Part shown: positions 14,283 through 39,690 of the stretch, one piece after another | How positions within the stretch are numbered: position 1 is the stretch's first letter | Layout of the letters: each line of letters opens with the position of its first letter | Assembly: GCA_017459605.1 (NCBI GenBank) | Contig: JAFUCQ010000110.1 | Location: 1 to 40,473, forward strand | From: Atopobiaceae bacterium | Lineage (GTDB): Bacteria; Actinomycetota; Coriobacteriia; Coriobacteriales; Atopobiaceae | DNA length: 40,473 nt | Direction: 5' to 3' | The notes under the pieces: generated by a model | The model's input: only the letters and a program-made list of their open reading frames with translations | Told to the model about the DNA's origin: nothing | The model's database searches: none | Translations under genes and position numbers: made by a program

Positions 14283-14322
14283 AAAAAGGCAAGCCCCTCG
14301 CATGTGCGAGTACGGCTTGCCC
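14283..14322 (-). terminator. Riboswitch-linked intrinsic terminator
   Basis: On the minus strand GGGCAAGCC (14322-14314) pairs with GGCTTGCC (14297-14290), with a second pair TCGCA/TGCGA in the loop, followed by TTTTTG. The 5' arm uses the last bases of the ZTP aptamer (CTGGGC), so the aptamer and the terminator compete. This predicts transcription stops without ligand and proceeds into purO with ligand. Confidence 0.85.
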
Positions 14323-14395
14323 AGACGGTCGGCTTTATGTGTGCGCGCTGCTCCACCGTGGTTGACCACGATTATCCGTCAGTCACACCGCGCTT
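14316..14395 (-). promoter_or_regulatory. ZTP riboswitch (pfl motif)
   Basis: The leader of purO carries the conserved blocks of the pfl/ZTP riboswitch in order on the minus strand: GGTGTGACTGACGG (P1-P2 side), CGTGGTCAACCACGGTGGAGC (P2 hairpin and loop, shown in part as GTGGTCAACCAC), and GCCGACCGTCTGGGC (P3 and pseudoknot). The class senses ZMP/ZTP (AICAR ribotide), which accumulates when 10-formyl-THF is short. Placement before the AICAR-using genes is the textbook context. An overlapping terminator follows, so control is probably by transcription read-through. The call comes from motif recall; a covariance model search was not possible. Confidence 0.92.
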
Positions 14396-14505
14396 ATTCG
14401 CCTTTCACTTTAACATGGGGCAGGCCAAGCACACAGTAACTACGGATTGTGGCGTTCGCAATATTGTCCACGGTCAGCCCCGATTTGATTTGTGGTTTTA
14501 ATGGG

Positions 14506-25486: not shown

Positions 25487-26326
25487 CTACTGCCTTCCGT
25501 GAGCTAAGCGTGTGCGAATCTTGGTGGAGAGCCACTCGATGATGACAACCAAAATGATGAGTGCCCACAAAAAGGCGCCAACATTGTGATACTTGGCACT
25601 TGAGATGGACTGAACCAAGGGGCTACCAATACCACCTGCGCCAACAATACCCAAGGTTGTTGCATCTTTGAGGTTAATGTCAAAGCGATAAATCGCTGTG
25701 GAGATAAAGCTTGCAAGGAGCTGTGGCAACACACCCACGCGGATCTTCTCAAAGGTGTTGCAGCCAGCAGCATCAAGTGATTCAAGAATGCCGGTGTCGA
25801 GATTCTCGATTGCCGTGACATACATTTTAGACACCATGCCAATTGAGCAGATGGACTGCGTCACAACACCGCAAAATGCACCGGGTCCGGTTACGCGAAT
25901 CCAAATAAGCGCCCACATGAGCGACGGGATGGTTCGGATAAACAAGACGATGGCGCGAAAGATCATAGCCACCGGGCGCGGCACAATGTTGGTTGCAGAC
26001 AAAAAGCTGATAGGAATGGCGAGCAATGCACCAAAGATGGTTCCCAAAATGGCAATCGCAATGGTTTGCAAGACAAGGAACGGCACACCATCGGTGGTGA
26101 GGTTAAAGAGCAGTTCGGTGTTGGGGTGCATAATACCGTTGATAACCGATCCGGCAATTTTGGCTCCGCTTTGGGTGATGCCATTAAAGTCGACACTTGT
26201 GGCACCCCATGCGGCGATGGCAAGCACGACCGCAAAAATCAAAATGCGCTTCCACAGGTTTTTGGGCTCGGCCGCAAGTGCTTCAAGAATGTTCTGACCG
26301 GGATTCATGTTCAAACTATCTTCCAT
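25487..26326 (-). CDS. phnE: Phosphonate-type ABC transporter permease PhnE (second copy)
   Basis: A 279-residue permease. It shows the PhnE pattern: TLTTDGVPFLVLQTIAIAIL-like N-terminal helices, RTIPSLMWALIWIRVTGPGA, and the ATPase-contact and C-terminal block DAAGCNTFEKIRVGVLPQLL followed by TLGIVGAGGIGSPLVQ, which is diagnostic of the family. The ATG at 26326 with AAGGAG 8 bases upstream is preferred to a GTG at 26335 that overlaps the site. It pairs with the other PhnE (12 bases upstream) to form the pore. The family moves phosphonates, phosphite or phosphate esters. Confidence 0.92.
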   Translation of the reverse strand: MEDSLNMNPGQNILEALAAEPKNLWKRILIFAVVLAIAAWGATSVDFNGITQSGAKIAGSVINGIMHPNTELLFNLTTDGVPFLVLQTIAIAILGTIFGALLAIPISFLSATNIVPRPVAMIFRAIVLFIRTIPSLMWALIWIRVTGPGAFCGVVTQSICSIGMVSKMYVTAIENLDTGILESLDAAGCNTFEKIRVGVLPQLLASFISTAIYRFDINLKDATTLGIVGAGGIGSPLVQSISSAKYHNVGAFLWALIILVVIIEWLSTKIRTRLAHGRQ

Positions 26327-26338
26327 CTTCCTCACTCC

Positions 26339-27238
26339 TTACTGCAGCTTGGAGCGCAGATAGTCACTGATAAGGTCGATAATCCATACCACCAAAAAGA
26401 GCGAGATAACAATGGCTCCTACGTCGTGATAGCGGCGAAGGCCCGTGCGCTCAGAAATGAGAACACCAAGACCGCCCGCGCCAACGTAGCCTAAGATGGC
26501 ACTGGCACGAACATTGAGCTCAAAGCAGTACAGACAGCTATCGAGATAGATTGGCATAATCTGCGGCATACAGGCAGACCAAAATGCCTCGAAGGTGGTA
26601 GCACCAAACGATTGCATGGCCTCAAAAGGCCCCATATCGATAGTCTCAATGCTTTCGTACAGCATCTTGGCAACAATACCTAAGGTAAACAGAGCAATTG
26701 CAACTGTTCCTGCAAAAGCACCCAGAGAAAAGATGAGTGCCAAGATCAGGGCGTAAATCAGGGTGGGAATTGAGCGGATAATCGACAGAATAAAGCGGAA
26801 GAACAACAAGGTGGGCTTGTTGTGGTTGATGTTTGACGATGCCAGAATGGCCACGGGTAGTCCCACGATGCAGCCGGCGAGCGTACCCACGATAGACATT
26901 TGTACCGTCTCGACGAGAGGACCAATTACACGCTGGGGAATAAACTCCCAGTTGGGCGTGAGTACCTGCCCCAAGATAGTACCAAGCTCACTTCCACGCT
27001 CAATGATGGTGGCAAGACTAAATCCTGTTGCTTGGATGGCTATCCACACCACCGCTAAGAAAATTGCAAGAATCAAAGGCGTGCGGCTTCGCGGGCGATC
27101 TACGGTGTTGCCGTTAGAAATGCTTATGGTCTCTGGCTTGAAGATGCGGTCAAAGAGGGGTTCTCGCTTTGCTGCAGCTTTCGCAGCAGCCTGACGCGCT
27201 TTCACGCGCTCGACATGCCCCTTCTCCTCAATTCTCAT
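26339..27238 (-). CDS. phnE: Phosphonate-type ABC transporter permease PhnE (first copy)
   Basis: A 299-residue permease with a charged cytoplasmic N-terminus of about 50 residues (KARQAAAKAAAKREP) and then five or six helices. The diagnostic segments are RSIPTLIYALILALIFSLGA, ESIETIDMGPFEAMQSFGAT and SAILGYVGAGGLGVLI. It begins at 27238 behind TAGGTGATG and ends 12 bases before the second permease. Two different permease subunits, each about 280-300 residues, imply a heterodimeric pore. The long basic N-terminus is unusual and is absent from the partner. Confidence 0.92.
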   Translation of the reverse strand: MRIEEKGHVERVKARQAAAKAAAKREPLFDRIFKPETISISNGNTVDRPRSRTPLILAIFLAVVWIAIQATGFSLATIIERGSELGTILGQVLTPNWEFIPQRVIGPLVETVQMSIVGTLAGCIVGLPVAILASSNINHNKPTLLFFRFILSIIRSIPTLIYALILALIFSLGAFAGTVAIALFTLGIVAKMLYESIETIDMGPFEAMQSFGATTFEAFWSACMPQIMPIYLDSCLYCFELNVRASAILGYVGAGGLGVLISERTGLRRYHDVGAIVISLFLVVWIIDLISDYLRSKLQ

Positions 27239-27249
27239 CCAATCATCAC

Positions 27250-28044
27250 CTATCCTTCGAGCATGTCTTTTGCCTCGGCAGACACCACGTCGGTCGAAGT
27301 GGGGATTGATGTTCCGTTGTACACGAGGTCGAGGACTTCTTGGGTTACCTCAGAGGTAGGTCCGTCATAGACAATCTCGCCAGCGCGAACGCCAATCACG
27401 CGGGTAGCGTATTTGAGGGCGAGGTCTACGTGGTGAATATTGATGAAAATTGAGATGTTGAGCTCTTTGTTGATGCGAGCAAAGTCGCTCATAACAACGT
27501 CGGCGATGATGGGGTCGAGAGACGCCACGGGCTCGTCTGCCAAAATGATAGAAGGATTTTGGTTGAGCGTTCGCGCCAAGGCAACGCGCTGCATCTGACC
27601 TCCCGACAGCTCGTCGCAGCGGCTGTACGCCTTATCAAGAATGTTGACTTTGTTGAGTGCCTCGAGAGCACGCATCTTTTGCTCTTTGGAGTAGATTCCA
27701 AACAATGTCTTGTACCACGGCATGTCAGGTACATCGCTCATCATGACGTTTTTGATAACCGTCGAACGGCTTACCAAATTGAAGGATTGGAAAATCATGC
27801 CAATCTTGCGGCGAAATCTTCGCATTTCGGCGCCTTTGAGCGTCATGACATCGGTACCGTCGACGGTGAGCGTTCCCTCTGTAATGTCAATCATGCGATT
27901 GATGGTTCGGATGAGGGTTGATTTGCCTGCGCCAGACAGTCCAATGATGGCAAGAAATTCTCCCTGCTCAATCTTGAGGTTTACGTGGTTCAAGCCTCTG
28001 GTACCGTTGGGATACACCTTTGATACATCTTGGAATTCAATCAT
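27250..28044 (-). CDS. phnC: Phosphonate-type ABC transporter ATP-binding protein PhnC
   Basis: A 264-residue ATPase. Walker A GLSGAGKST (residues 36-44), Q-loop MIFQSFNLVSRSTVIKNVM, signature LSGGQMQRVALARTL and Walker B IILADEPVASLDP are all intact. GTRGLNHVNLKIEQGEFLAI and the NLVSRSTVIKNV segment are typical of PhnC. It energises the two PhnE permeases. The gene starts at 28044 (GGAGATACC upstream), 11 bases before the first permease. It is separated from phnD by a 108-base gap holding a terminator-like hairpin. Confidence 0.94.
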   Translation of the reverse strand: MIEFQDVSKVYPNGTRGLNHVNLKIEQGEFLAIIGLSGAGKSTLIRTINRMIDITEGTLTVDGTDVMTLKGAEMRRFRRKIGMIFQSFNLVSRSTVIKNVMMSDVPDMPWYKTLFGIYSKEQKMRALEALNKVNILDKAYSRCDELSGGQMQRVALARTLNQNPSIILADEPVASLDPIIADVVMSDFARINKELNISIFINIHHVDLALKYATRVIGVRAGEIVYDGPTSEVTQEVLDLVYNGTSIPTSTDVVSAEAKDMLEG

Positions 28045-28072
28045 GCTGGTATCTCCATCTTATTTTCAACGT

Positions 28073-28110
28073 AAAAGGGCTGTCGCAGAATACGTGCTGC
28101 GGCAGCCCTT
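28073..28110 (-). terminator. Terminator-like hairpin between phnD and phnC
   Basis: On the minus strand AAGGGCTGCCGCAGC pairs with CTGCGACAGCCCTT around a short loop and is followed by TTACGTTG. It is within the phn operon, so partial termination could make more binding protein than ATPase and permease, as often seen in ABC importers. Confidence 0.7.
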
Positions 28111-28152
28111 GATTGCACTCTACAGAGTCAGACGGTGTAAGTCCTGTGAGCG

Positions 28153-29295
28153 TTACTCCATAGCTGCCAAAGCATCGCGGGCGGCGTCGTAGTCGGAGTC
28201 ATTAGCAGGCTGATAGCCAGTGTGGCTGTAGATACCGATAATCTCTTTGCCCTCGTCGGTGTCAGCAAGACCCATGAAGATGTCTGCAAGAGCAGTCTGG
28301 AACTCGCTGCTGTTGAGAACATCAGCGTTAGGACCAGTCTTTGCCAAGCAGATGGTGTCGTTGTAGATGTTGGGGGTAACGCCAATGACGTTGCACTCAT
28401 GCCAAATATCCTCGCTGCGACCCCACTCACCAGTCCAGCTCTCCTCGTAGTCCATACGAGCATCTGCATAAGCGCAGAAGATGTCGATGGTCTCGCCAGA
28501 GGCAAGCTGCATAAAGGCGTCTGCCTGCTTCATGTCGATGGTAACGTTGGGAAGATCGGTAATCTTCTTGCCGTAGGTCTCCTCAAGCCAGAGGTTGGGA
28601 TAGATGTAGGAGGCGTTGGAGGTAAGAGAACCGACACCCCAGTTAGCAGCTGAAATCTCTTCCCAGCTAATCTCCTCGCCGTTGTTTGCCTTAGCAGCGA
28701 GAGCCTGACCCGTCTCAGAGGGACCTGCCCAAATGAGACCCTTGTAGTAGGTTACGGGCACACCTTCCTCACGCTTGGTTGCCTGACCGTTCCAGTCAGA
28801 CGGCGTGAAGGTGTCAGGAATAAGGTTGTCACGGGTAGCGGTGAGCAAGAGGTTCATGTCATCGCCAAACAGGGCATAGGTGCCACCGGGGACATAACCG
28901 ATGTCTGCGGTGCCTGCGGCAAGAGCCTCGCCAGCGGCGTTGTAGTTGTCTGACACGGCAATCTCAACGGAGCCAACCTGATAGCCTGCTTCACCGAGCT
29001 TCTCAATCAAGATGTCCTTGAGACCAGAGGTGGTCGAGATAATCTCGTCTGCGGGACGAGAAGGAACGTACATGATTGAGAGCTTGTCGATGGCGGCGCC
29101 AGCAGCGCTTGAAGTAGAAGCGCTTGCCTCAGATGCAGATGCAGAAGCTTCTGCTGCAGAAGCAGATGCAGAAGCTGAAGCCTCGGATTTGGAAGCCTCG
29201 GGCTGAGCCTGTCCGCCTCCGCATGCGGCAAGAGCAAGGCTTGCAACAGATGCTGAACCGAGGACGAAATTCCTACGAGTGAGTTTGCTGTCCAT
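28153..29295 (-). CDS. phnD: Phosphonate-type substrate-binding lipoprotein PhnD
   Basis: A 380-residue binding protein. The N-terminus has a Tat-like signal LTRRNFVLGSASV followed by the lipobox LAAC and then a Ser/Ala/Glu-rich linker of about 40 residues. The mature part starts IDKLSIMYVPSRPADEI, as in PhnD (phosphate/phosphite/phosphonate binding family), and includes AAGEALAAGTADIGYVPGGT, a conserved ligand loop, and NASYIYPNLWLEE. The frame runs back to 29397, but ATG 29295 has AAGGGAG 7 bases upstream. Binding of a phosphate-containing ligand is expected from the family. A folded-in-cytoplasm export route is inferred from the twin arginine. Confidence 0.9.
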   Translation of the reverse strand: MDSKLTRRNFVLGSASVASLALAACGGGQAQPEASKSEASASASASAAEASASASEASASTSSAAGAAIDKLSIMYVPSRPADEIISTTSGLKDILIEKLGEAGYQVGSVEIAVSDNYNAAGEALAAGTADIGYVPGGTYALFGDDMNLLLTATRDNLIPDTFTPSDWNGQATKREEGVPVTYYKGLIWAGPSETGQALAAKANNGEEISWEEISAANWGVGSLTSNASYIYPNLWLEETYGKKITDLPNVTIDMKQADAFMQLASGETIDIFCAYADARMDYEESWTGEWGRSEDIWHECNVIGVTPNIYNDTICLAKTGPNADVLNSSEFQTALADIFMGLADTDEGKEIIGIYSHTGYQPANDSDYDAARDALAAME

Positions 29296-29458
29296 TGTTA
29301 TCTCCCTTACATTTCCGACATGGACTCCTGTCTGACAATCCCATGTCATGAGTAATGTTGTAATGTTGCCACAAAGTGCAGCCATTGTGCACGACAATTA
29401 CTATTCAATCGATGGACTACCCAATAAGTTTCAAGTTTCAAGTGAGCGAGTGTTCTCG
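29296..29458. other. Spacer upstream of phnD
   Basis: This gap holds the phnD promoter and the 3' end of the GGDEF gene transcript. It has short direct repeats (CAACATTA twice near 29355-29372 on the minus strand; TTGAAAC-like twice near 29430-29445). No clear promoter pair or Pho-box-like array was identified. Confidence 0.4.
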
Positions 29459-30517
29459 TTATGGTGTTGCGACAGAGAGGATTTGACCCCGTTCATCGGC
29501 CTTAATTCTTAAGAGCAGACCATCGGCATCGTTAATCATAGAGCGAAGCTCGCTGTCAGATTCGGGGGTTGCAAAGACAAATCCACAACTAAACGATATG
29601 GGCAATGCTTCGCCCTCGATTTCATGTTTGGCAAGGCGTCGCTTGCAGCGCTTGAGGGCTGTGCGAAACTCGTGCTCGGTAGCTTTATCGTACAAGACGA
29701 GCAGCTCGTCTCCGCCGTAGCGATAGCAATGCTCAGTTCCAAACTCGTTAGAAAATGCCGACGAGAATGCCTGAATGATGCTGTCGCCCACAACGTGGCC
29801 CAAGCGGTCGTTAAAGTCTTTGAACAGGTCAATGTCAACCATGGCAACACACAGAGGCTTGCCAATGTAGCTGGGAAAATCAGAGCGCAAGGCATAGCGG
29901 TTTTTGAGGCCACTCAACTCGTCGTGTTCGCTCATTTCGAGTAGTGCCGCAGTGCCTTCGACCGCATCGAAGCGCTCCGCCAGAATAAAAAGCGTTATTG
30001 AAACAGTGGCAGTGCCAAACGAAAAAATGTGGGACAGGTCGAGAAGAGCAATGTCTCTGTCTTTGAAAAGGATACACATGAGCGAAAACAAAACGATAAG
30101 CGCGAGCTCATAGCTCACTACGCGCCATGGTTTGTCGAGAATGCACAAGGGTAGCGTCATGATGAGCAGCAAAAAGGTAACGCTTTGGCGGTGTGGATCA
30201 AGGACGGTTCCCATCAGAATGCCCAAAAGCATGACCGGCAGCTGTATGGCATAGAAAACCCAGCTATCAATTGTTCTATTGTGGCTTTTGAGAATGCGAT
30301 ACCCAACAGCTATCAATATGTAGTATAGAGCAAGGCCTGAACTGGGAAGAATAGCTAAGGTTTGCGAGAGTGCAAGCTGAGAAACAACACTGGTAAACAC
30401 AACTGCCAAGCCAAGAATAATAAAGGCTCGGAGGTTAACCGAGTTTCTCCGCCGCACCTCAGCGTGGTATTCTTCAAAGCGCCTCGATGATAGACGCCGC
30501 TTTATTTCGTCGAACAA
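29459..30517 (-). CDS. Membrane GGDEF protein (diguanylate cyclase-like)
   Basis: A 352-residue protein. About six hydrophobic helices lie in residues 25-190 (for example FIILGLAVVFTSVVSQLAL and VTFLLLIMTLPLCIL). The GGDEF domain starts at DELSGLKNRYAL (about 194) and has the loop RYGGDEL near residue 265, a variant (Leu for Phe) that is usually active, with the metal/GTP segment MVDIDLFKDFNDRLGH. The start is a TTG at 30517 behind GGAGGGG. It is the third gene of a cluster with a binding lipoprotein and a GGDEF-EAL protein, 117 bases after the latter, and likely helps set c-di-GMP level. Confidence 0.88.
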   Translation of the reverse strand: MFDEIKRRLSSRRFEEYHAEVRRRNSVNLRAFIILGLAVVFTSVVSQLALSQTLAILPSSGLALYYILIAVGYRILKSHNRTIDSWVFYAIQLPVMLLGILMGTVLDPHRQSVTFLLLIMTLPLCILDKPWRVVSYELALIVLFSLMCILFKDRDIALLDLSHIFSFGTATVSITLFILAERFDAVEGTAALLEMSEHDELSGLKNRYALRSDFPSYIGKPLCVAMVDIDLFKDFNDRLGHVVGDSIIQAFSSAFSNEFGTEHCYRYGGDELLVLYDKATEHEFRTALKRCKRRLAKHEIEGEALPISFSCGFVFATPESDSELRSMINDADGLLLRIKADERGQILSVATP

Positions 30518-30634: not shown

Positions 30635-33337
30635 CTATGGAGTGGCCTTGTGTTCTTGAATCTGTTTAAGCGCAACGGGGTTGATAGCAGCTGGCACCTC
30701 CGAGGGACGTGCCAGATAGTAGCCTTGAAGCAAATCGACATTGAGGTCTAAAAGACAGGCAAGCTCCGAAGGTGTTTCGATGCCCTCAGCAATAATTTTC
30801 ATGTTGCGCTCGTGGGCATACTCAACGATGTTGGTAACGATGCGCTGCTTGTCTACAGAACTGTTGATGTCTCGAACAATGGAAATATCCACCTTGACAA
30901 AACTGGGTTTGAGCTCGAGGAGCTTGAGCTCTGAGTTGTAGCCACTGCCATAGTCGTCGAGGGCAAAGAGTCCCGTAAATCCGGGAACCTTGCGCTTGAT
31001 GGCGGTGGCTTCTTCATCCATGTTTTCTGTCTCGGTAATCTCGATGACAAGATGGCTGAGCAGGTTGCTAAAGCGCTCAGCAATCCTTTCAAACTCAGAC
31101 ATATCCAAGCTTACGCTGGCAATTGAGTTGATAAAGAGCAGAGCCGCCTTGTCAACCTCGTTTTGCGAGAGAAGCCCCTGATAGCTTTCGAGGGTGCGAA
31201 TCCACGTCATACGCTCAACCTCGCGCAAGCGGCTCTCTTTGCGCGCAATGGAAAAGACATCTGCAGGGCTTTGCAGCGCATCAAGGGCAACACGGAGCAG
31301 TGCCTCATACGCAAATGGCCTACCACTTTGAGCGTCAAATATGGGCTGGAAGTGATAACTGGCAAGCTGGCAGTTGTCCATCAAATCGTTGAAACTTGCT
31401 TTTGCTCGCAGCTCATTTGAACGCTGACGGTAGTTGTCAATATCGAAGTAGGCAATGTTGTTTTTGCCGCTCATCTTGACCTGATACATGGTGAAGTCAG
31501 CGAGCCGCATGAGCTCTTCAAATTCTTCGGCGTCCTTGAGGTAGAGGGCAACACCTCCAGAGGCGTTAATGTGCTCGATTTTTCCACCCGGAAGTGCAAA
31601 CTCTGTTTGAGGGATTGAGGTTTTGAGTTTTTCGATAGAGGTCTCAATCTCTTGTTGCGAGTCGTGACCATGGAACAAAATGTAGAACTCATCGCCCGAG
31701 ACGCGGGCAACCAGTGCATTTGAAGGCGCCAGTTTTTTGAAAGTGTTCGCCGCTTGATAGATGTATTTGTCGCCCCAATCATGGCCGTACATATCGTTAA
31801 TCTTTTTGAGGTTGTCAAGGTCGAGCATGACAAGAGCTGCTTGCTTGAGCTCTTCTGGTTGAGAAAAGACAACACTTGCCTCTCGGTAGAAAGAGCGGCG
31901 GTTCATCAAGCCAGTGAGCATATCGTAGTCACGCTCATGTTCGATGCGGCTTTGCTCGGCTTCGCGCACCTTATCGATGTCTTCGGACAAGGTAGCAATT
32001 GCGGTAGTGAACTGGTCAATTTCTGCGATATTGGTCTTTGAGAGCTGCGGCATACCACGGTGGTTTTCGTGGGCGTCGTAGACCTCATTTGAAAGCTTAC
32101 GAATGGGCTTAGAAATGCTGTGTCCTACAAGCACCGCACCCACTATGCCTGCAACAGCCATAACGAGTGCTGTAATGACCAAGGTCCACTGGAGCTGTCG
32201 AGAAAACGAATGCAAGATGGTCTCAGGAATAACGCCGATAATACCCCAGCGGTCATGTTCAAACGGGGCGTGAGTGTTGTAGAGCTTGAAAGGTCTAAAG
32301 CCAGCATGCAAACCCACGGGGGCATCTTTTACGGTATAGCCTCCGTAGTGCGATGTTTCGAGGGTTATCGTGTTACCGAGCCGCTCAGTAAAGCTACCCG
32401 TCGCATTGACCACAGAAGGTGTGAGTTCAATCACATCTGTTGTCTGGTCATCCGAAAAAGAAACAAGGGCATAGGCGCCTTCTTGACCGTTAATAAAGTC
32501 ACGCATGGGCATGAGTGACTGCAGATACTTTGTTGCAAGACTTACTCCCACAACGCCATAGACAGTGCCGTCATCAAGGATGAGTGGGATGGTATAGCAG
32601 AGTGCCTGTCCGTCGGTGACATCGTCCTCTAAGAGACTTGTTGTACTCCAGTAGGCAAAATCTGAAGCGCTTGCATCGTGTGAACGAGTAAGAGCCGCTT
32701 GGAAAGGTATGCGGATAAAGTCAAAATTCTTGTCGCGAGCACGACCTTGGAAGTTGAAGAGGGGAGACCAGCCAACGTCAGTTCTAATGCGCAAGGTATT
32801 GAGCAGCTCAATGGAGCTATGCTCAATGGCGAGGTCTTCATTTCTTGCTGAGGGAGTTGCTGCAGGATCGGTATCTTTAATCAATATGCCCGGCATCTTG
32901 AGTGAGGTACCACTTAAATCTTCAAGGTTGTCGGTGTTAAAGATGACAAAGATTCCCGAGACTGCTTTATCACGTAACGTGCTAATCATGGGACCTATGA
33001 TGTATTGCTGCAGGCGCGACGTGCTTGTTATGTTGCCATCAAGGTCGCTGAGGTCGAGCTGATTTGACTCTATGAGCTCGGCTGCGCTGTTATTGATGAC
33101 GTCTGCTAACTGGTCGAGGTTTGAGACACTACCAACAAAATAGTCTTCGAGGTAGTTTTTGCGCGTGTCAACTTGGTTATCAAAGATGTCATTGTCATTT
33201 TGGTTTATGCGGCCAATGACGTTGTTAGCCAACAAAACGGCTGCAAAAATGAGCACTTCAGCAAGGATTAGCACAATAATCGGTATGAGTATTGTGCTGA
33301 AGATAGACCGTGTTGCTTTGTTCTCAGCCTGCACCAT
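30635..33337 (-). CDS. Cache-like sensor/HAMP/GGDEF/EAL protein
   Basis: A 900-residue protein. One helix at about 12-35 (FSTILIPIIVLILAEVLIFA), an extracellular sensor of about 330 residues that looks like a double Cache domain (VVGVSLATKYLQSLMPMR, GAYALVSFSDDQTTDV), a second helix at about 375-395, and a HAMP linker (GHSISKPIRKLSNEVYDA). The GGDEF domain starts near 470 (YDMLTGLMNRRSF); its loop reads SGDEF at about 546, a degenerate form. The EAL domain starts near 650 and keeps its catalytic signature: YEALLR, FINSIAS, VIEITET, ALDDYGSGY, FVKVDISI and AEGIET. It is thus likely a c-di-GMP phosphodiesterase. It starts 16 bases after the lipoprotein gene. Confidence 0.9.
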   Translation of the reverse strand: MVQAENKATRSIFSTILIPIIVLILAEVLIFAAVLLANNVIGRINQNDNDIFDNQVDTRKNYLEDYFVGSVSNLDQLADVINNSAAELIESNQLDLSDLDGNITSTSRLQQYIIGPMISTLRDKAVSGIFVIFNTDNLEDLSGTSLKMPGILIKDTDPAATPSARNEDLAIEHSSIELLNTLRIRTDVGWSPLFNFQGRARDKNFDFIRIPFQAALTRSHDASASDFAYWSTTSLLEDDVTDGQALCYTIPLILDDGTVYGVVGVSLATKYLQSLMPMRDFINGQEGAYALVSFSDDQTTDVIELTPSVVNATGSFTERLGNTITLETSHYGGYTVKDAPVGLHAGFRPFKLYNTHAPFEHDRWGIIGVIPETILHSFSRQLQWTLVITALVMAVAGIVGAVLVGHSISKPIRKLSNEVYDAHENHRGMPQLSKTNIAEIDQFTTAIATLSEDIDKVREAEQSRIEHERDYDMLTGLMNRRSFYREASVVFSQPEELKQAALVMLDLDNLKKINDMYGHDWGDKYIYQAANTFKKLAPSNALVARVSGDEFYILFHGHDSQQEIETSIEKLKTSIPQTEFALPGGKIEHINASGGVALYLKDAEEFEELMRLADFTMYQVKMSGKNNIAYFDIDNYRQRSNELRAKASFNDLMDNCQLASYHFQPIFDAQSGRPFAYEALLRVALDALQSPADVFSIARKESRLREVERMTWIRTLESYQGLLSQNEVDKAALLFINSIASVSLDMSEFERIAERFSNLLSHLVIEITETENMDEEATAIKRKVPGFTGLFALDDYGSGYNSELKLLELKPSFVKVDISIVRDINSSVDKQRIVTNIVEYAHERNMKIIAEGIETPSELACLLDLNVDLLQGYYLARPSEVPAAINPVALKQIQEHKATP

Positions 33338-33353
33338 ACTGCACCTTCAAGCG

Positions 33354-34805
33354 CTATGAAATACTACTCTGACCCACAATTGATGACAGCTGTCTATGCA
33401 CATCATCATACCAACGGTCAAAGCGCTCATCGGTCACGTACGGTGCACAGGCCTCTTCAAAAGACATGCCTTGAGCAAGGCGTGACTTGACCTGCTGGGC
33501 ATCGTGTGATGCCTCATCGCTCATACAGGCTTCCAAAATATCTCTGAACTGAGCTCCACCTTCAAATGCAGGCGGACTGTAGAGATGGCTGTTGTTGACG
33601 TCACTGAGGGCAATCTCGATGGTATCCTCGATTTTCTTTGAGATGGTTTCTTCGATTCTGCGAACCTCGTTGATGTCATTAGCTTCTTTTGTGACAGGAA
33701 GATAGCCTGACGATATTGAGAAGCTGAGGTTTTGTTCTTTTGCGGTAAACCATTTGAGAAACTCAATGCTGGCCTCAACCTCAATATCGTTGGTGTTGAT
33801 AACCGACATACCTGCGCCTTGCTGAACCGCGTAATCTTCGCCGCTCTCAAATTGTGGGGCAGGCAGAACGTCCATTTCTATAAAGTGCTCATCGCCCGAC
33901 TCGTCAATGATTGATGCTGGGAAAAACGTGGAGCTTGACGATGAACCAATGAGACTCAAGATGGAACCCGTTTTGATGTCATCACTTCTAAAGCGGCCCT
34001 GTGCGCAGAAATAGCCCTTTACAAAGGGGACATAGTAGTTATCCCAGAGCCTGCGAACAACGTCCTTGTCAAAGTTGAAGACAAGCTCTCCATCTTGGTA
34101 CGAGATGATATCAACGCCAAGCTGCTTTGCTCCAATGAAAAAGTAATTGGCAAGCGAGTCACGACCGCAGAGTGCTTTGCCGTCGTTGGCTTCGTCTGTT
34201 TTGGCATCAGTCCACTCGTAATAGAGCTGGGCAGTTTTGGTAAGACCCTCGATGGTTGAAAAATCGTCATAGCTTATATTGTTTGCCTGCAAAAATGGCT
34301 GAATATCATTCTTGTTGATAAAGAGAACCTCAGTTGATTTACCTACGGGAAAAATCTTGATCGCCCCGGTGGTGCCGAGACTTCCTTCGGAGAGGTAGCT
34401 TTGTATGTAGCGGTCTTTTTCTTCTTGTGTGAGGTAGGGCGCTATATCTACGATGAGCTCTTGTTCATCGAGCTGAAGTGCTGTGTCGGCGTAACAAGCC
34501 ACAATGTTGGGGAGCTCATCAGATCCAACTTTACCTGCGGCAGAGTCAAGTACCGCATCGCGCAAATCCTCAACGCTTCCGAGATTGGATGTCTCGACAT
34601 AGATACCCTTTTCACTGCCAACACTTGTATTAAAGTCATCAACGAGTTCTTGGAGGGCGGTGAGTTGGGCTCCGTTGTAATACGTCCACACACGGATGGA
34701 GGTCAATGTTTTATTGACTGTTCCTGAATCACCAACACATGCACCAAGCATGAGAGACACGACAACGAGTATGTAGATTGTCACACGACGAATGCTGCTC
34801 TGCAT
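33354..34805 (-). CDS. Extracellular solute-binding lipoprotein, family 1, without a permease
   Basis: A 483-residue binding protein. A signal peptide ends in the lipobox LGAC (about residue 23). The mature part shows the family 1 (sugar-type) pattern: IRVWTYYNGAQLTALQELVD, DELPNIVACYADTALQL, IFPVGKSTEVLFINKNDIQ and ASIEFLKWFTAKEQ. It is exposed outside the membrane. No permease or ATPase gene is near; instead it is followed by the GGDEF-EAL sensor gene (16-base gap). It may deliver a ligand to the sensor domain of that protein instead of feeding a transporter, an inference from the operon. The start at 34805 has GGAAGGC upstream. Confidence 0.88.
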   Translation of the reverse strand: MQSSIRRVTIYILVVVSLMLGACVGDSGTVNKTLTSIRVWTYYNGAQLTALQELVDDFNTSVGSEKGIYVETSNLGSVEDLRDAVLDSAAGKVGSDELPNIVACYADTALQLDEQELIVDIAPYLTQEEKDRYIQSYLSEGSLGTTGAIKIFPVGKSTEVLFINKNDIQPFLQANNISYDDFSTIEGLTKTAQLYYEWTDAKTDEANDGKALCGRDSLANYFFIGAKQLGVDIISYQDGELVFNFDKDVVRRLWDNYYVPFVKGYFCAQGRFRSDDIKTGSILSLIGSSSSSTFFPASIIDESGDEHFIEMDVLPAPQFESGEDYAVQQGAGMSVINTNDIEVEASIEFLKWFTAKEQNLSFSISSGYLPVTKEANDINEVRRIEETISKKIEDTIEIALSDVNNSHLYSPPAFEGGAQFRDILEACMSDEASHDAQQVKSRLAQGMSFEEACAPYVTDERFDRWYDDVHRQLSSIVGQSSIS

Positions 34806-34958
34806 GACATAAGCCTTCCCACTGAGCTAACTACCTAGTTATCATAGCTAAAGTTTTGATATATGGGCGCTTTATATAGCTATGAATTTATTTGGCAGTC
34901 TGAATAGTTTTATGGTTAACCCCGATAAGCTTGTACCCACATAAACGGCTTACTATCT
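34806..34958. promoter_or_regulatory. Short spacer with probable promoter of the binding-protein/GGDEF cluster
   Basis: An AT-rich stretch with TATGAT about 45 bases upstream of the start on the minus strand is a possible -10 box, but no good -35 was found. The ZIP gene ends at the right, with a small palindrome CTATCTTTAAGATAG around its stop codon. Confidence 0.35.
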
Positions 34959-37370: not shown

Positions 37371-38105
37371 TTATGCCTCGAGGACCTTATCCAAGAACGA
37401 TTTCGTTCGCGGGTTTTGTGGGTTGGAGAAAATCTGGTCGGGGGTGCCCTCCTCAGCAATAATGCCCTCATCGATGAACAGAACACGGTCTGCAACGCTT
37501 TTTGCAAAGCCCATCTCGTGCGTCACGATTGCCATGGTCATGCCATCGCGTGCGAGGTGGCGCATAACGTCGAGAACCTCGCCCACCATCTCGGGGTCAA
37601 GAGCGCTGGTAGGCTCATCAAAGAGCATGAGTCCGGGTTGCATAGCCAAGGCGCGAGCAATGGCTACGCGCTGTTTTTGTCCACCTGAGAGACTGCGCGG
37701 GAAGGCGTCGGCCTTTTCTTCCAGACCAACGCTTGCCAAAAGCTTGCGACCCAGCTCGGTTGCTTGTGCCATATCCATCTTTTTTCGCATCGTGGGCGCA
37801 ATGGTGATGTTGTCCATAACGCTCAGGTGCGGGAAAAGATTGAACTGCTGAAACACCATGCCGATGTCTTCTCGGTAGGAGTCGATGTCGGGTGAGTTGG
37901 CGTCCATCACATGTCCGTCAACGGTGATGGTGCCTGAGGTTGGCTCTTCGAGACAGTTGATGCAGCGCAAAAAGGTAGACTTGCCCGAACCCGACGGACC
38001 GATGATGCAAACAACCTCGCCTGCCTCAATATTGCAATTAATGCCGCGAAGGACTTCGTTGTCTCCAAAGCTTTTGTGAAGATCGCGGATTTCTACTTTA
38101 GCCAA
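37371..38105 (-). CDS. Polar amino-acid ABC transporter ATP-binding protein (GlnQ-like)
   Basis: A 244-residue ATPase of the polar amino-acid uptake family. Walker [11 protein letters not shown]-loop [20 protein letters not shown], signature [15 protein letters not shown] and Walker [14 protein letters not shown] are complete. The phrase [14 protein letters not shown] is typical of the GlnQ/HisP group. The open frame extends a few codons upstream to 38126, but a TTG at 38105 gives the family start ([13 protein letters not shown]) and has GAGGAAGG upstream. It overlaps the permease stop by 8 bases. The gene is transcribed after the binding protein and permease. Confidence 0.93.
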
Positions 38106-38751
38106 GGGACACCTTCCTCTCCACAATGCGAGCCAGTAAGGTGAGCAGCCAAATCACGATAAAGAACAGCACGCCAACCATAATCCATACCTCAAAGGGT
38201 CGGTAGGTGCGGGCAATGATTTGAGATCCTTGGCGCACGAGCTCGGCAAGGCCAATGACGCAGATAATCGAGGTGTCCTTGATGGTGATACACCACTGGT
38301 TGACCACACTGGGAATACAAATGCGGATAGCCTGCGGCAAAATGATGCGACGCATGGTTTGACCGCGCGAGAGTCCCAGCGAGCGTGCTGCCTCGTTTTG
38401 TCCTGGGTCAACTGCTTGGATACCGCCTCTGAAAATCTCTGAGAGGTAGCCACCTGCATTGAGTGACAGGGCAATAACGCCCGCGGTAAAGGCACTCATG
38501 CGAATGCCGAGTACGCCAGTGATGCCAAAGTAGATGAAATAGGCTTGCACCAAAAGCGGTGTTCCACGGATGATGGCAACAAAGGCACTATTGAGTGCGC
38601 GCAGGGGGGCATGCTTAGAAAGGCCAGCAAGAGAAGCGAGTATGCCCAAAATCATGGCTATGACCAATGAGATAAAGGCAAGCCATAACGTTAGACCAAG
38701 CCCCTGCAACAGCAGGGGCAAGGATTCTTGCAATAGTTCAAAAAAGCTCAT
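38098..38751 (-). CDS. Polar amino-acid ABC transporter permease (GlnP/HisM-like)
   Basis: A 217-residue permease with about five helices. Family marks are [59 protein letters not shown] and [20 protein letters not shown] (the EAA-type loop). Only one permease is present, so it probably forms a homodimer. It lies 72 bases after the binding-protein gene and overlaps the start of the ATPase gene. Likely substrates are glutamine, other polar or basic amino acids. Confidence 0.94.
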
Positions 38752-38823
38752 GTGAAATACCTAAAATGTAGCGAATCGAATGAATGAATCGGGTGCTTGT
38801 GTTTGCGAGAAACAGCGCCAGAC

Positions 38824-39690
38824 TTAGCCCACAGACTGGACGTACTTGTTGACAATTTCGTCATAGGTGCCGTTGTCTTTGATGTTCTTGAGGCCATCGT
38901 TGAACATCTGGAGTAGCTCGGCGTTGTTACCCTTGTTGACAGCAAAGCCATACGGGGTAGCAAACTCGCTGGAGCTGTCGGCCTCGGCGATGAGCTTGAG
39001 GTCAACGTTTCCGGTGGAGATAGCGTAGCTCATAACGGGGGTGTCCTCGAAGCATGCAGCAGAGTTGCCTGCGATGACGTCTTGATACATAACATCAGAG
39101 GTGTCGAAGGTAGTCATGGTAAAGCCGTACTCATCAGCGAGGCTTTCTGCCCATGACTGGCTCATGGTGCCACTCTTTACAGCAACGTTTTTACCAGCAA
39201 GATCTTCAAGTGAGCTGATGTCGCCCGTGGCAAGAGCTGCAGCGCAGACGGTGGAGTCATAGTAGGCCTCAGAGAAGTCGAAGGTTTCTTTGCGCTTGTC
39301 GGTGATTGACATACCAGCGATAACGCCGTCTGCCTGACCAGACTGAACGGCTTGCAGTGCTGCGTCAAATCCGAGAGGATCGAGCTCGTACTCAAAGCCC
39401 TGGTCTTTGGCGACTGCTGCGAGAAGTTCAATGTCGATGCCAACATAGGTACCGTCAGCCTCGGCGTACTCAAAGGGGGCAAAGGTGGTATCGGTTGCAA
39501 TTCTGTAGGTGGTAGCACTGGCAGAAGTGGTAGCGGTGCTGGTGCTTGCGCTGGCTTCAGTGCTTGCGCTACCGCTTGAGCTTGCCTCGGTGTTTGAGCT
39601 GGTGTTTGAGCCACCACCACAGGCAGCGAGCACAATGGCAAGTGCAGCTACTGCAAACAGGCTGGCAGCAATCTTGGTAATCTTTTTCAT
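38824..39690 (-). CDS. Amino-acid-binding lipoprotein, SBP family 3
   Basis: A 288-residue binding protein. The signal ends in LAAC (about residue 24), followed by a Ser/Thr/Ala-rich linker of about 40 residues and a compact family 3 fold: IATDTTFAPFEYAEADGTYV, GIDIELLAAVAKDQGFEYEL and ALQAVQSGQADGVIAGMSIT. It captures a polar amino acid outside the membrane for the permease and ATPase encoded downstream. The start at 39690 has GGGAGGAACC. The linker resembles those of the other lipoproteins in the window. Confidence 0.94.
   Translation of the reverse strand: MKKITKIAASLFAVAALAIVLAACGGGSNTSSNTEASSSGSASTEASASTSTATTSASATTYRIATDTTFAPFEYAEADGTYVGIDIELLAAVAKDQGFEYELDPLGFDAALQAVQSGQADGVIAGMSITDKRKETFDFSEAYYDSTVCAAALATGDISSLEDLAGKNVAVKSGTMSQSWAESLADEYGFTMTTFDTSDVMYQDVIAGNSAACFEDTPVMSYAISTGNVDLKLIAEADSSSEFATPYGFAVNKGNNAELLQMFNDGLKNIKDNGTYDEIVNKYVQSVG

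Follow-up and report, generated by a model that had tools for sequence, protein, structure and literature searches.

A binding lipoprotein encoded beside a dCache sensor in Coriobacteriia and Bacillota: a probable receptor for the control of c-di-GMP turnover

In LuxP-LuxQ, the target of the binding protein is a dCache (double PAS-like) ectodomain. The gene nspS lies directly upstream of mbaA, and NspS switches the SGDEF/EVL enzyme of MbaA (PMC8079147, PMC8967002), with the occupancy of the solute-binding protein (SBP) setting cyclic di-GMP (c-di-GMP) (PMC8079147, PMC8967002, PMC9993111); MbaA makes c-di-GMP in vivo with its SGDEF motif (PMC8079147). The periplasmic L-arginine-binding protein ArtI is needed for the response of the dCache_1 diguanylate cyclase STM1987 in Salmonella (PMC8846402). 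In the clostridial systems CuaD-CuaS-CuaR and XylFII-LytS, a lipoprotein SBP is encoded next to a membrane sensor, to which it bound in two-hybrid tests; CuaS can sense cellobiose alone and works better with CuaD (PMC10384115). Here we analyse a gene pair in a 40,473-nucleotide contig of an Atopobiaceae bacterium (JAFUCQ010000110.1, assembly GCA_017459605.1; the whole stretch is called the window below), in which the gene for an SBP_bac_8 lipoprotein precedes that for a membrane sensor with GGDEF and EAL domains. We consider it likely that the two proteins form a receptor that controls c-di-GMP turnover. The pair would be a two-protein transmembrane receptor, in which the lipid-anchored lipoprotein captures an extracellular solute and, in its liganded (or unliganded) state, docks on the dCache ectodomain of its partner, and this docking would move the balance of the HAMP-coupled GGDEF-EAL module between breakdown of c-di-GMP and, possibly, its synthesis.

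The pair and its conservation

The lipoprotein gene (33354..34805, minus strand) encodes 483 amino acids of the CUT1-UgpB branch, with no linked transporter. Its identity as a binding lipoprotein is established by the lipobox LMLGAC23, whose Cys23 is invariant across the family alignment, and by the Pfam match to SBP_bac_8 [PF13416, E = 2.7e-23, 83.6 bits against a cut-off of 27]. A 16-bp intergenic spacer (33338..33353, minus strand), with a Shine-Dalgarno sequence GAAGGTG ahead of the sensor ATG, separates it from the sensor gene (30635..33337, minus strand). The sensor protein of 900 amino acids is made up of a first transmembrane helix (TM1, residues 12-37), a dCache ectodomain (about 40-375), a second transmembrane helix (TM2, from 377), HAMP-like helices, a GGDEF domain with an SGDEF loop (470-627; E = 5.8e-33 in Pfam) and an EAL domain (653-878; E = 3.2e-40). 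An earlier note on this DNA, made from the letters alone, had both genes and the gap of 16 bases right in position and description.

The relatives considered are the 80 loci from Bacillota and Coriobacteriia contigs of GTDB that best matched a lipoprotein profile (A1) built from the family alignment. A homologous sensor gene lies directly downstream on the same strand in 79 of these 80 loci, the exception (L139) keeping only remnants of the sensor, and the gap between the two genes ranges from -53 to 89 bp with a median of 19 (77 related pairs). Within Coriobacteriia the lipoprotein is present in 18 of 298 genomes; besides that of the window, the sensor adjoins it in 16 of 17, and the seventeenth (L035) has a distant sensor with a LuxR-type helix-turn-helix (HTH) domain. 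All 17 of the Coriobacteriia genomes in which the sensor was found (E <= 1e-15, among the 298) also have the lipoprotein [hypergeometric P about 9e-27, not corrected for shared ancestry]. The synteny on which the earlier note had based its proposal is therefore kept, both among the related loci and among the other Coriobacteriia genomes. A chance neighbourhood of the two genes was ruled out by the adjacency together with the co-occurrence in genomes. The family itself is sharply bounded: in 20 named genomes with as many as 53 first-look candidates each, the profile search found no more than one or two members in any genome at E < 1e-128 and nothing else below 1e-30.

In the AlphaFold2 model of the first 470 residues of the sensor [predicted local distance difference test (pLDDT) 90.9], a transmembrane helix, two PAS-like modules, a second transmembrane helix and HAMP-like helices follow each other, and the two PAS-like modules are borne on a long N-terminal helix between the transmembrane helices, an architecture of the dCache_1 type. 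The top Foldseek matches of this model in the PDB are the dCache chemoreceptors MkcA, McpU, PctD and TlpQ; DctB and LuxQ are found further down the list, the LuxQ ectodomain at rank 50 with E = 7e-3, and Pfam dCache_1 scores below its cut-off in relatives. At the other end of the protein, the EAL residues E678, N737, E766, E769, D794, D795, K815, E851 and Q871 are all intact, as the earlier note had proposed for this site, and the catalytic residues are kept in 74-80 of the 80 full-length enzymes of the family. The same note called the SGDEF loop degenerate, and this we would revise. SGDEF is the commonest form in the family (66 of 80, with GGDEF in 10, AGDEF in 3 and SGDEL in 1), the other GTP and metal residues of the domain are invariant in all 80 enzymes, and MbaA is active with the same motif, so that the loop is not readable as a sign of inactivity. 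A decayed GGDEF domain was rejected as an interpretation of SGDEF on the basis of this residue conservation.

A membrane GGDEF protein of 352 amino acids with a GGDEL motif is encoded 117 bp downstream of the sensor gene (29459..30517, minus strand), outside the core system. The earlier note took it for a cyclase opposing the phosphodiesterase, and one may suppose that lipoprotein, phosphodiesterase and opposing cyclase form one conserved three-gene unit. The shared strand, the short distance and the gap free of any terminator-like site speak for such a unit, and the gene is possibly co-transcribed with the pair; however, a similar GGDEF gene follows the pair in none of the related loci examined. 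A conserved three-gene unit is thus very improbable, and the third-gene cyclase was dropped as a conserved element of the system. The window genome (G000) holds 18 GGDEF and 6 EAL matches in total and no match to PilZ. No c-di-GMP riboswitch was found in the window at Rfam gathering scores; a separate search with RF01051 matched nowhere, not even in its controls, and carries no information.

Exchange of outputs and of the binding protein

Most sensors of the family end in GGDEF-EAL, and others end in a hybrid histidine kinase with a receiver (REC) domain, in GGDEF alone or in a LuxR-type HTH. The HisKA-HATPase-REC output is found on the same lipoprotein-sensor unit in one Coriobacteriia genome (G153, L022) and in several Bacillota (L131, L132, L136, L145, L146, L148, L151, L201 and L226), and GGDEF alone in L142, L202 and L111, a count that leaves out L074, L144 and L128b, which are cut by contig ends. 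In a related subfamily of Bacillota (L203-L220), the SBP precedes a membrane sensor of about 540 amino acids that ends in a LuxR-type HTH without any enzyme domain, and that is apparently a one-component membrane-bound transcription factor; the HTH is confirmed by Pfam in L203, L204, L210, L214 and L220, as well as in L035, and the rest were assigned to this group from their length and their match to the sensor. The part that stays with the lipoprotein when the output domain changes corresponds to residues 12-375 of the window sensor, that is, TM1 and the dCache ectodomain (32213..33304, minus strand). The tree of 113 SBPs, a quick one without bootstrap and with some long branches, sorts by output type with 8 changes, against 31.4 in shuffles. 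The LuxR and the histidine-kinase groups each form one clade with 100% support in the Shimodaira-Hasegawa-like approximate likelihood ratio test, the kinase clade including one member whose output is cut by a contig end. These results indicate that the SBP travels with the ectodomain and not with the c-di-GMP enzymes: the conserved unit is the lipoprotein plus the sensor ectodomain, and the output varies. In one metagenome-assembled genome (MAG) of Lachnospiraceae, two lipoprotein-sensor pairs stand in tandem (L128:5447-13892), of which the second has an SBP that falls with the histidine-kinase clade.

The binding protein is exchanged as well. In two genomes (G270 and G287), the gene immediately ahead of a second sensor copy encodes a Bmp/PnrA lipoprotein [PF02608, E < 1e-75] in place of SBP_bac_8, with gaps of 6 and 43 bp (L248:6296-10120 and L249:2277-6138). 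Orthologues of this Bmp protein sit ahead of an ATPase of the ATP-binding cassette (ABC) type in all 18 other loci examined, including one in the window genome, and it thus seems that a binding protein of another kind was taken up by the sensor family. In the window genome, too, there is a second sensor copy (L057:8381-11152, G000:C129), whose start codon falls at a contig end, so that its partner is cut off.

The earlier note held that no permease or ATPase lies near the pair. Taken literally this is mistaken, as ABC operons flank the pair on both sides, one of phosphonate type (25487-29397) and one of amino-acid type (37371-39690); both have their own binding proteins, and the lipoprotein is thus left without an evident transporter partner there. 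CUT1 permeases occur near only one of the 80 family loci (L148, within 7 kb), and as far as the check could run there is no co-conserved cognate permease, which agrees with the note in substance. A dedicated role in ABC import was rejected because linked CUT1 permeases are absent from 79 of the 80 loci. The lipoprotein may nevertheless be the SBP of an ABC importer encoded elsewhere, sharing an operon with the sensor for co-regulation only. It is closely related to importer SBPs, since the outgroup proteins L221 and L222 belong to operons with a UgpC-like ATPase and two UgpA/UgpE-like permeases, and its ligand-contact residues are kept; the permeases at L148 also fit an importer. Against this stand the missing linkage and the situation in the window genome, where the CUT1 permeases identified sit in clusters with their own SBP (each of the two other SBP_bac_8 proteins is accompanied by permeases of its own, as is the other CUT1 permease pair that was read by an SBP). 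Moreover, co-regulation leaves unexplained that one ectodomain family is kept while the output goes from phosphodiesterase to kinase to transcription factor, and that a Bmp lipoprotein replaces the SBP beside a sensor paralogue. Hence we regard an importer encoded elsewhere as improbable.

To illustrate the correlation between the two proteins, pairwise distances in the SBP can be set against those in the sensor, and they show a strong correlation (r = 0.93, 113 pairs). Within the phosphodiesterase pairs, divergence of the SBP follows that of the ectodomain (partial r = 0.60) more closely than that of the output domains (partial r = 0.26). Median identities are 50% for the SBP, 31% for the sensor ectodomain and 43% for the output. 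It is possible, though doubtful, that the ectodomain binds the small ligand itself, with the lipoprotein as a co-receptor or scavenger that raises the local concentration of the ligand or the affinity for it. Direct ligand binding by dCache domains is common, the sensor fold matches McpU, PctD and TlpQ, and CuaD-CuaS-CuaR offers a precedent in a clostridium (PMC10384115). However, the ectodomain diverges faster than the SBP, and this difference suggests the SBP, rather than the ectodomain, as the site of conserved ligand recognition. Likewise, the canonical amino-acid motif of dCache_1 is present in none of the 113 sensors scored for it.

The case for a receptor made of lipoprotein and sensor together has to be set against several points that weigh against it. 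From the genes and models we infer the physical contact between lipoprotein and ectodomain, the mechanism, the sign of the effect and the enzymatic activity. The dCache ectodomain could bind a ligand of its own, as other dCache ligands exist, and the correlated divergence is partly trivial, as linked genes share their history. An unlinked permease could still serve the lipoprotein, the co-conservation of distant permeases having been examined in the window genome only, which is 89% complete. As regards contact, RUG11413 has a natural tandem in which the SBP stop codon TAG lies directly ahead of the in-frame sensor start. Its single-chain model, for which TAG was translated as Gln, has a predicted template modelling score (pTM) of 0.69, a moderate value that lies between our rough estimates of 0.53-0.58 for random placement and 0.90 for full confidence; this is suggestive only, a hint of contact between lipoprotein and ectodomain. 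The central proposal of the earlier note, a lipoprotein acting on a c-di-GMP sensor, is nonetheless strongly supported by the pairing in two phyla and by the swaps of output and of partner, and what falls away are its details on the cyclase, the permease and SGDEF.

Ligand pocket, origin and surroundings

The nearest solved structures to the lipoprotein, by profile and by fold, are UgpB and dinucleotide-, glycerophosphocholine- and sugar-binding proteins, and the fold agrees with proteins of the UgpB branch, including the dinucleotide-binding protein, at a TMt of about 0.82. PotD gave no match in the PDB profile search (E <= 1e-3), in which UgpB/CUT1 proteins were found instead. Of seven contact positions of UgpB that were checked, five are kept (S157, S288, G330, Y368 and R421; residue roles from PMC12718374), at 92-100% conservation in the non-LuxR family, the LuxR subfamily being without R421. 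The Trp clamp is absent and one phosphate-contact Tyr is substituted. As the N-terminal half of UgpB was misaligned to the family by MAFFT, only the C-terminal pocket residues and S157 were relied on. The pocket residues shared with UgpB make a phosphate ester or a glycan a plausible ligand, and they weakly indicate a phosphate ester (glycerophosphodiester, nucleotide) or glycan as the likeliest class.

The closest ABC-linked relatives of the lipoprotein are L221 and L222, and the simplest history would be that a transporter SBP was recruited to a receptor. Only one of 140 genomes in the family of the window organism has the pair. In the SBP tree this pair groups with a clade of Coriobacteriia, some of whose MAGs come from rumen and deer, and the clade is nested among Bacillota; taken together, the Coriobacteriia pairs occupy four separate positions in the tree. 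Together, this rarity, the nesting and the four positions point to repeated transfer of the cassette. The G+C content of the window contig (0.524) matches other contigs of the genome, and mis-binning of the contig is conceivable. The pair is also found on a 155-kb plasmid record of Subdoligranulum (L272, OY725836.1) and in Acetoanaerobium noterae from sludge (L273, NZ_CP154629.1), and may thus be mobile and not confined to the gut. A bolder view, which we think unlikely as it stands, would make the UgpB-like lipoprotein and the dCache ectodomain a portable extracellular receptor cassette for a single conserved signal of the gut, which could be a phosphodiester (glycerophosphocholine, short oligonucleotide). 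The cassette would have moved between Bacillota and Coriobacteriia and been joined to four outputs, a phosphodiesterase, a cyclase, a phosphorelay kinase and a membrane-bound LuxR-type transcription factor.

Just upstream of the lipoprotein start (34806-34958), the sequence TTAGCTCAGTGGGAAGG resembles a tRNA D-arm, and no tRNA was called there; it is possibly due to chance or an integration scar. Elsewhere in the window there is a ZMP/ZTP riboswitch (RF01750, 55.9 bits, 14312-14396, minus strand).

Comparison with known systems

In a search of the literature that was not exhaustive, we found no description of this lipoprotein-sensor pair in Bacillota or Coriobacteriia, and it appears that a widespread family, made of parts of known kinds, is as yet undescribed. 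The pair is usually single-copy and strongly conserved in Blautia, Faecalibacterium, Roseburia, Hungatella and Christensenella, all of them common genera of the human gut. The SBP is one conserved soluble domain, and a ligand screen of one protein could thus assign a c-di-GMP input in many gut commensals, while the exchanges of output and of binding protein that occur in nature offer a means of studying how binding proteins are read by a dCache ectodomain.

NspS-MbaA, known from Vibrio cholerae and Sinorhizobium meliloti, resembles the pair in having the SBP gene upstream of that for a membrane sensor of SGDEF plus EAL type (PMC8079147, PMC8967002, PMC9993111). This gene layout recurs in 79 of the 80 loci, mostly with GGDEF-EAL, and by analogy it supports the view that the pair works like NspS-MbaA in kind. 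NspS is PotD/PotF-like and reported from proteobacteria, whereas the window SBP is a lipoprotein of the UgpB/CUT1 branch from Bacillota and Coriobacteriia; as it is not PotD-like, we do not place it in the NspS-MbaA homologous family. Unlike NspS-MbaA as reported, the window sensor family has kinases and transcription factors among its outputs as well. LuxP-LuxQ is similar in that the LuxQ ectodomain is among the Foldseek matches, though a weak one, and differs in that the outputs here are mostly c-di-GMP enzymes and the SBP is SBP_bac_8. The histidine-kinase variants of the family are paralleled by CuaD-CuaS-CuaR and XylFII-LytS, which unlike the window pair have a separate kinase and regulator and no c-di-GMP output. 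What sets the window pair apart from ArtI-STM1987 is a dedicated, paired SBP and an enzyme whose EAL domain is intact, and compared with UgpB and the binding proteins for glycerophosphocholine and the UpG dinucleotide, the lipoprotein has no linked transporter. The best-known control of c-di-GMP enzymes by SBPs, as in NspS-MbaA and ArtI-STM1987, comes from proteobacteria, and the family described here would extend the principle to genera of the gut.

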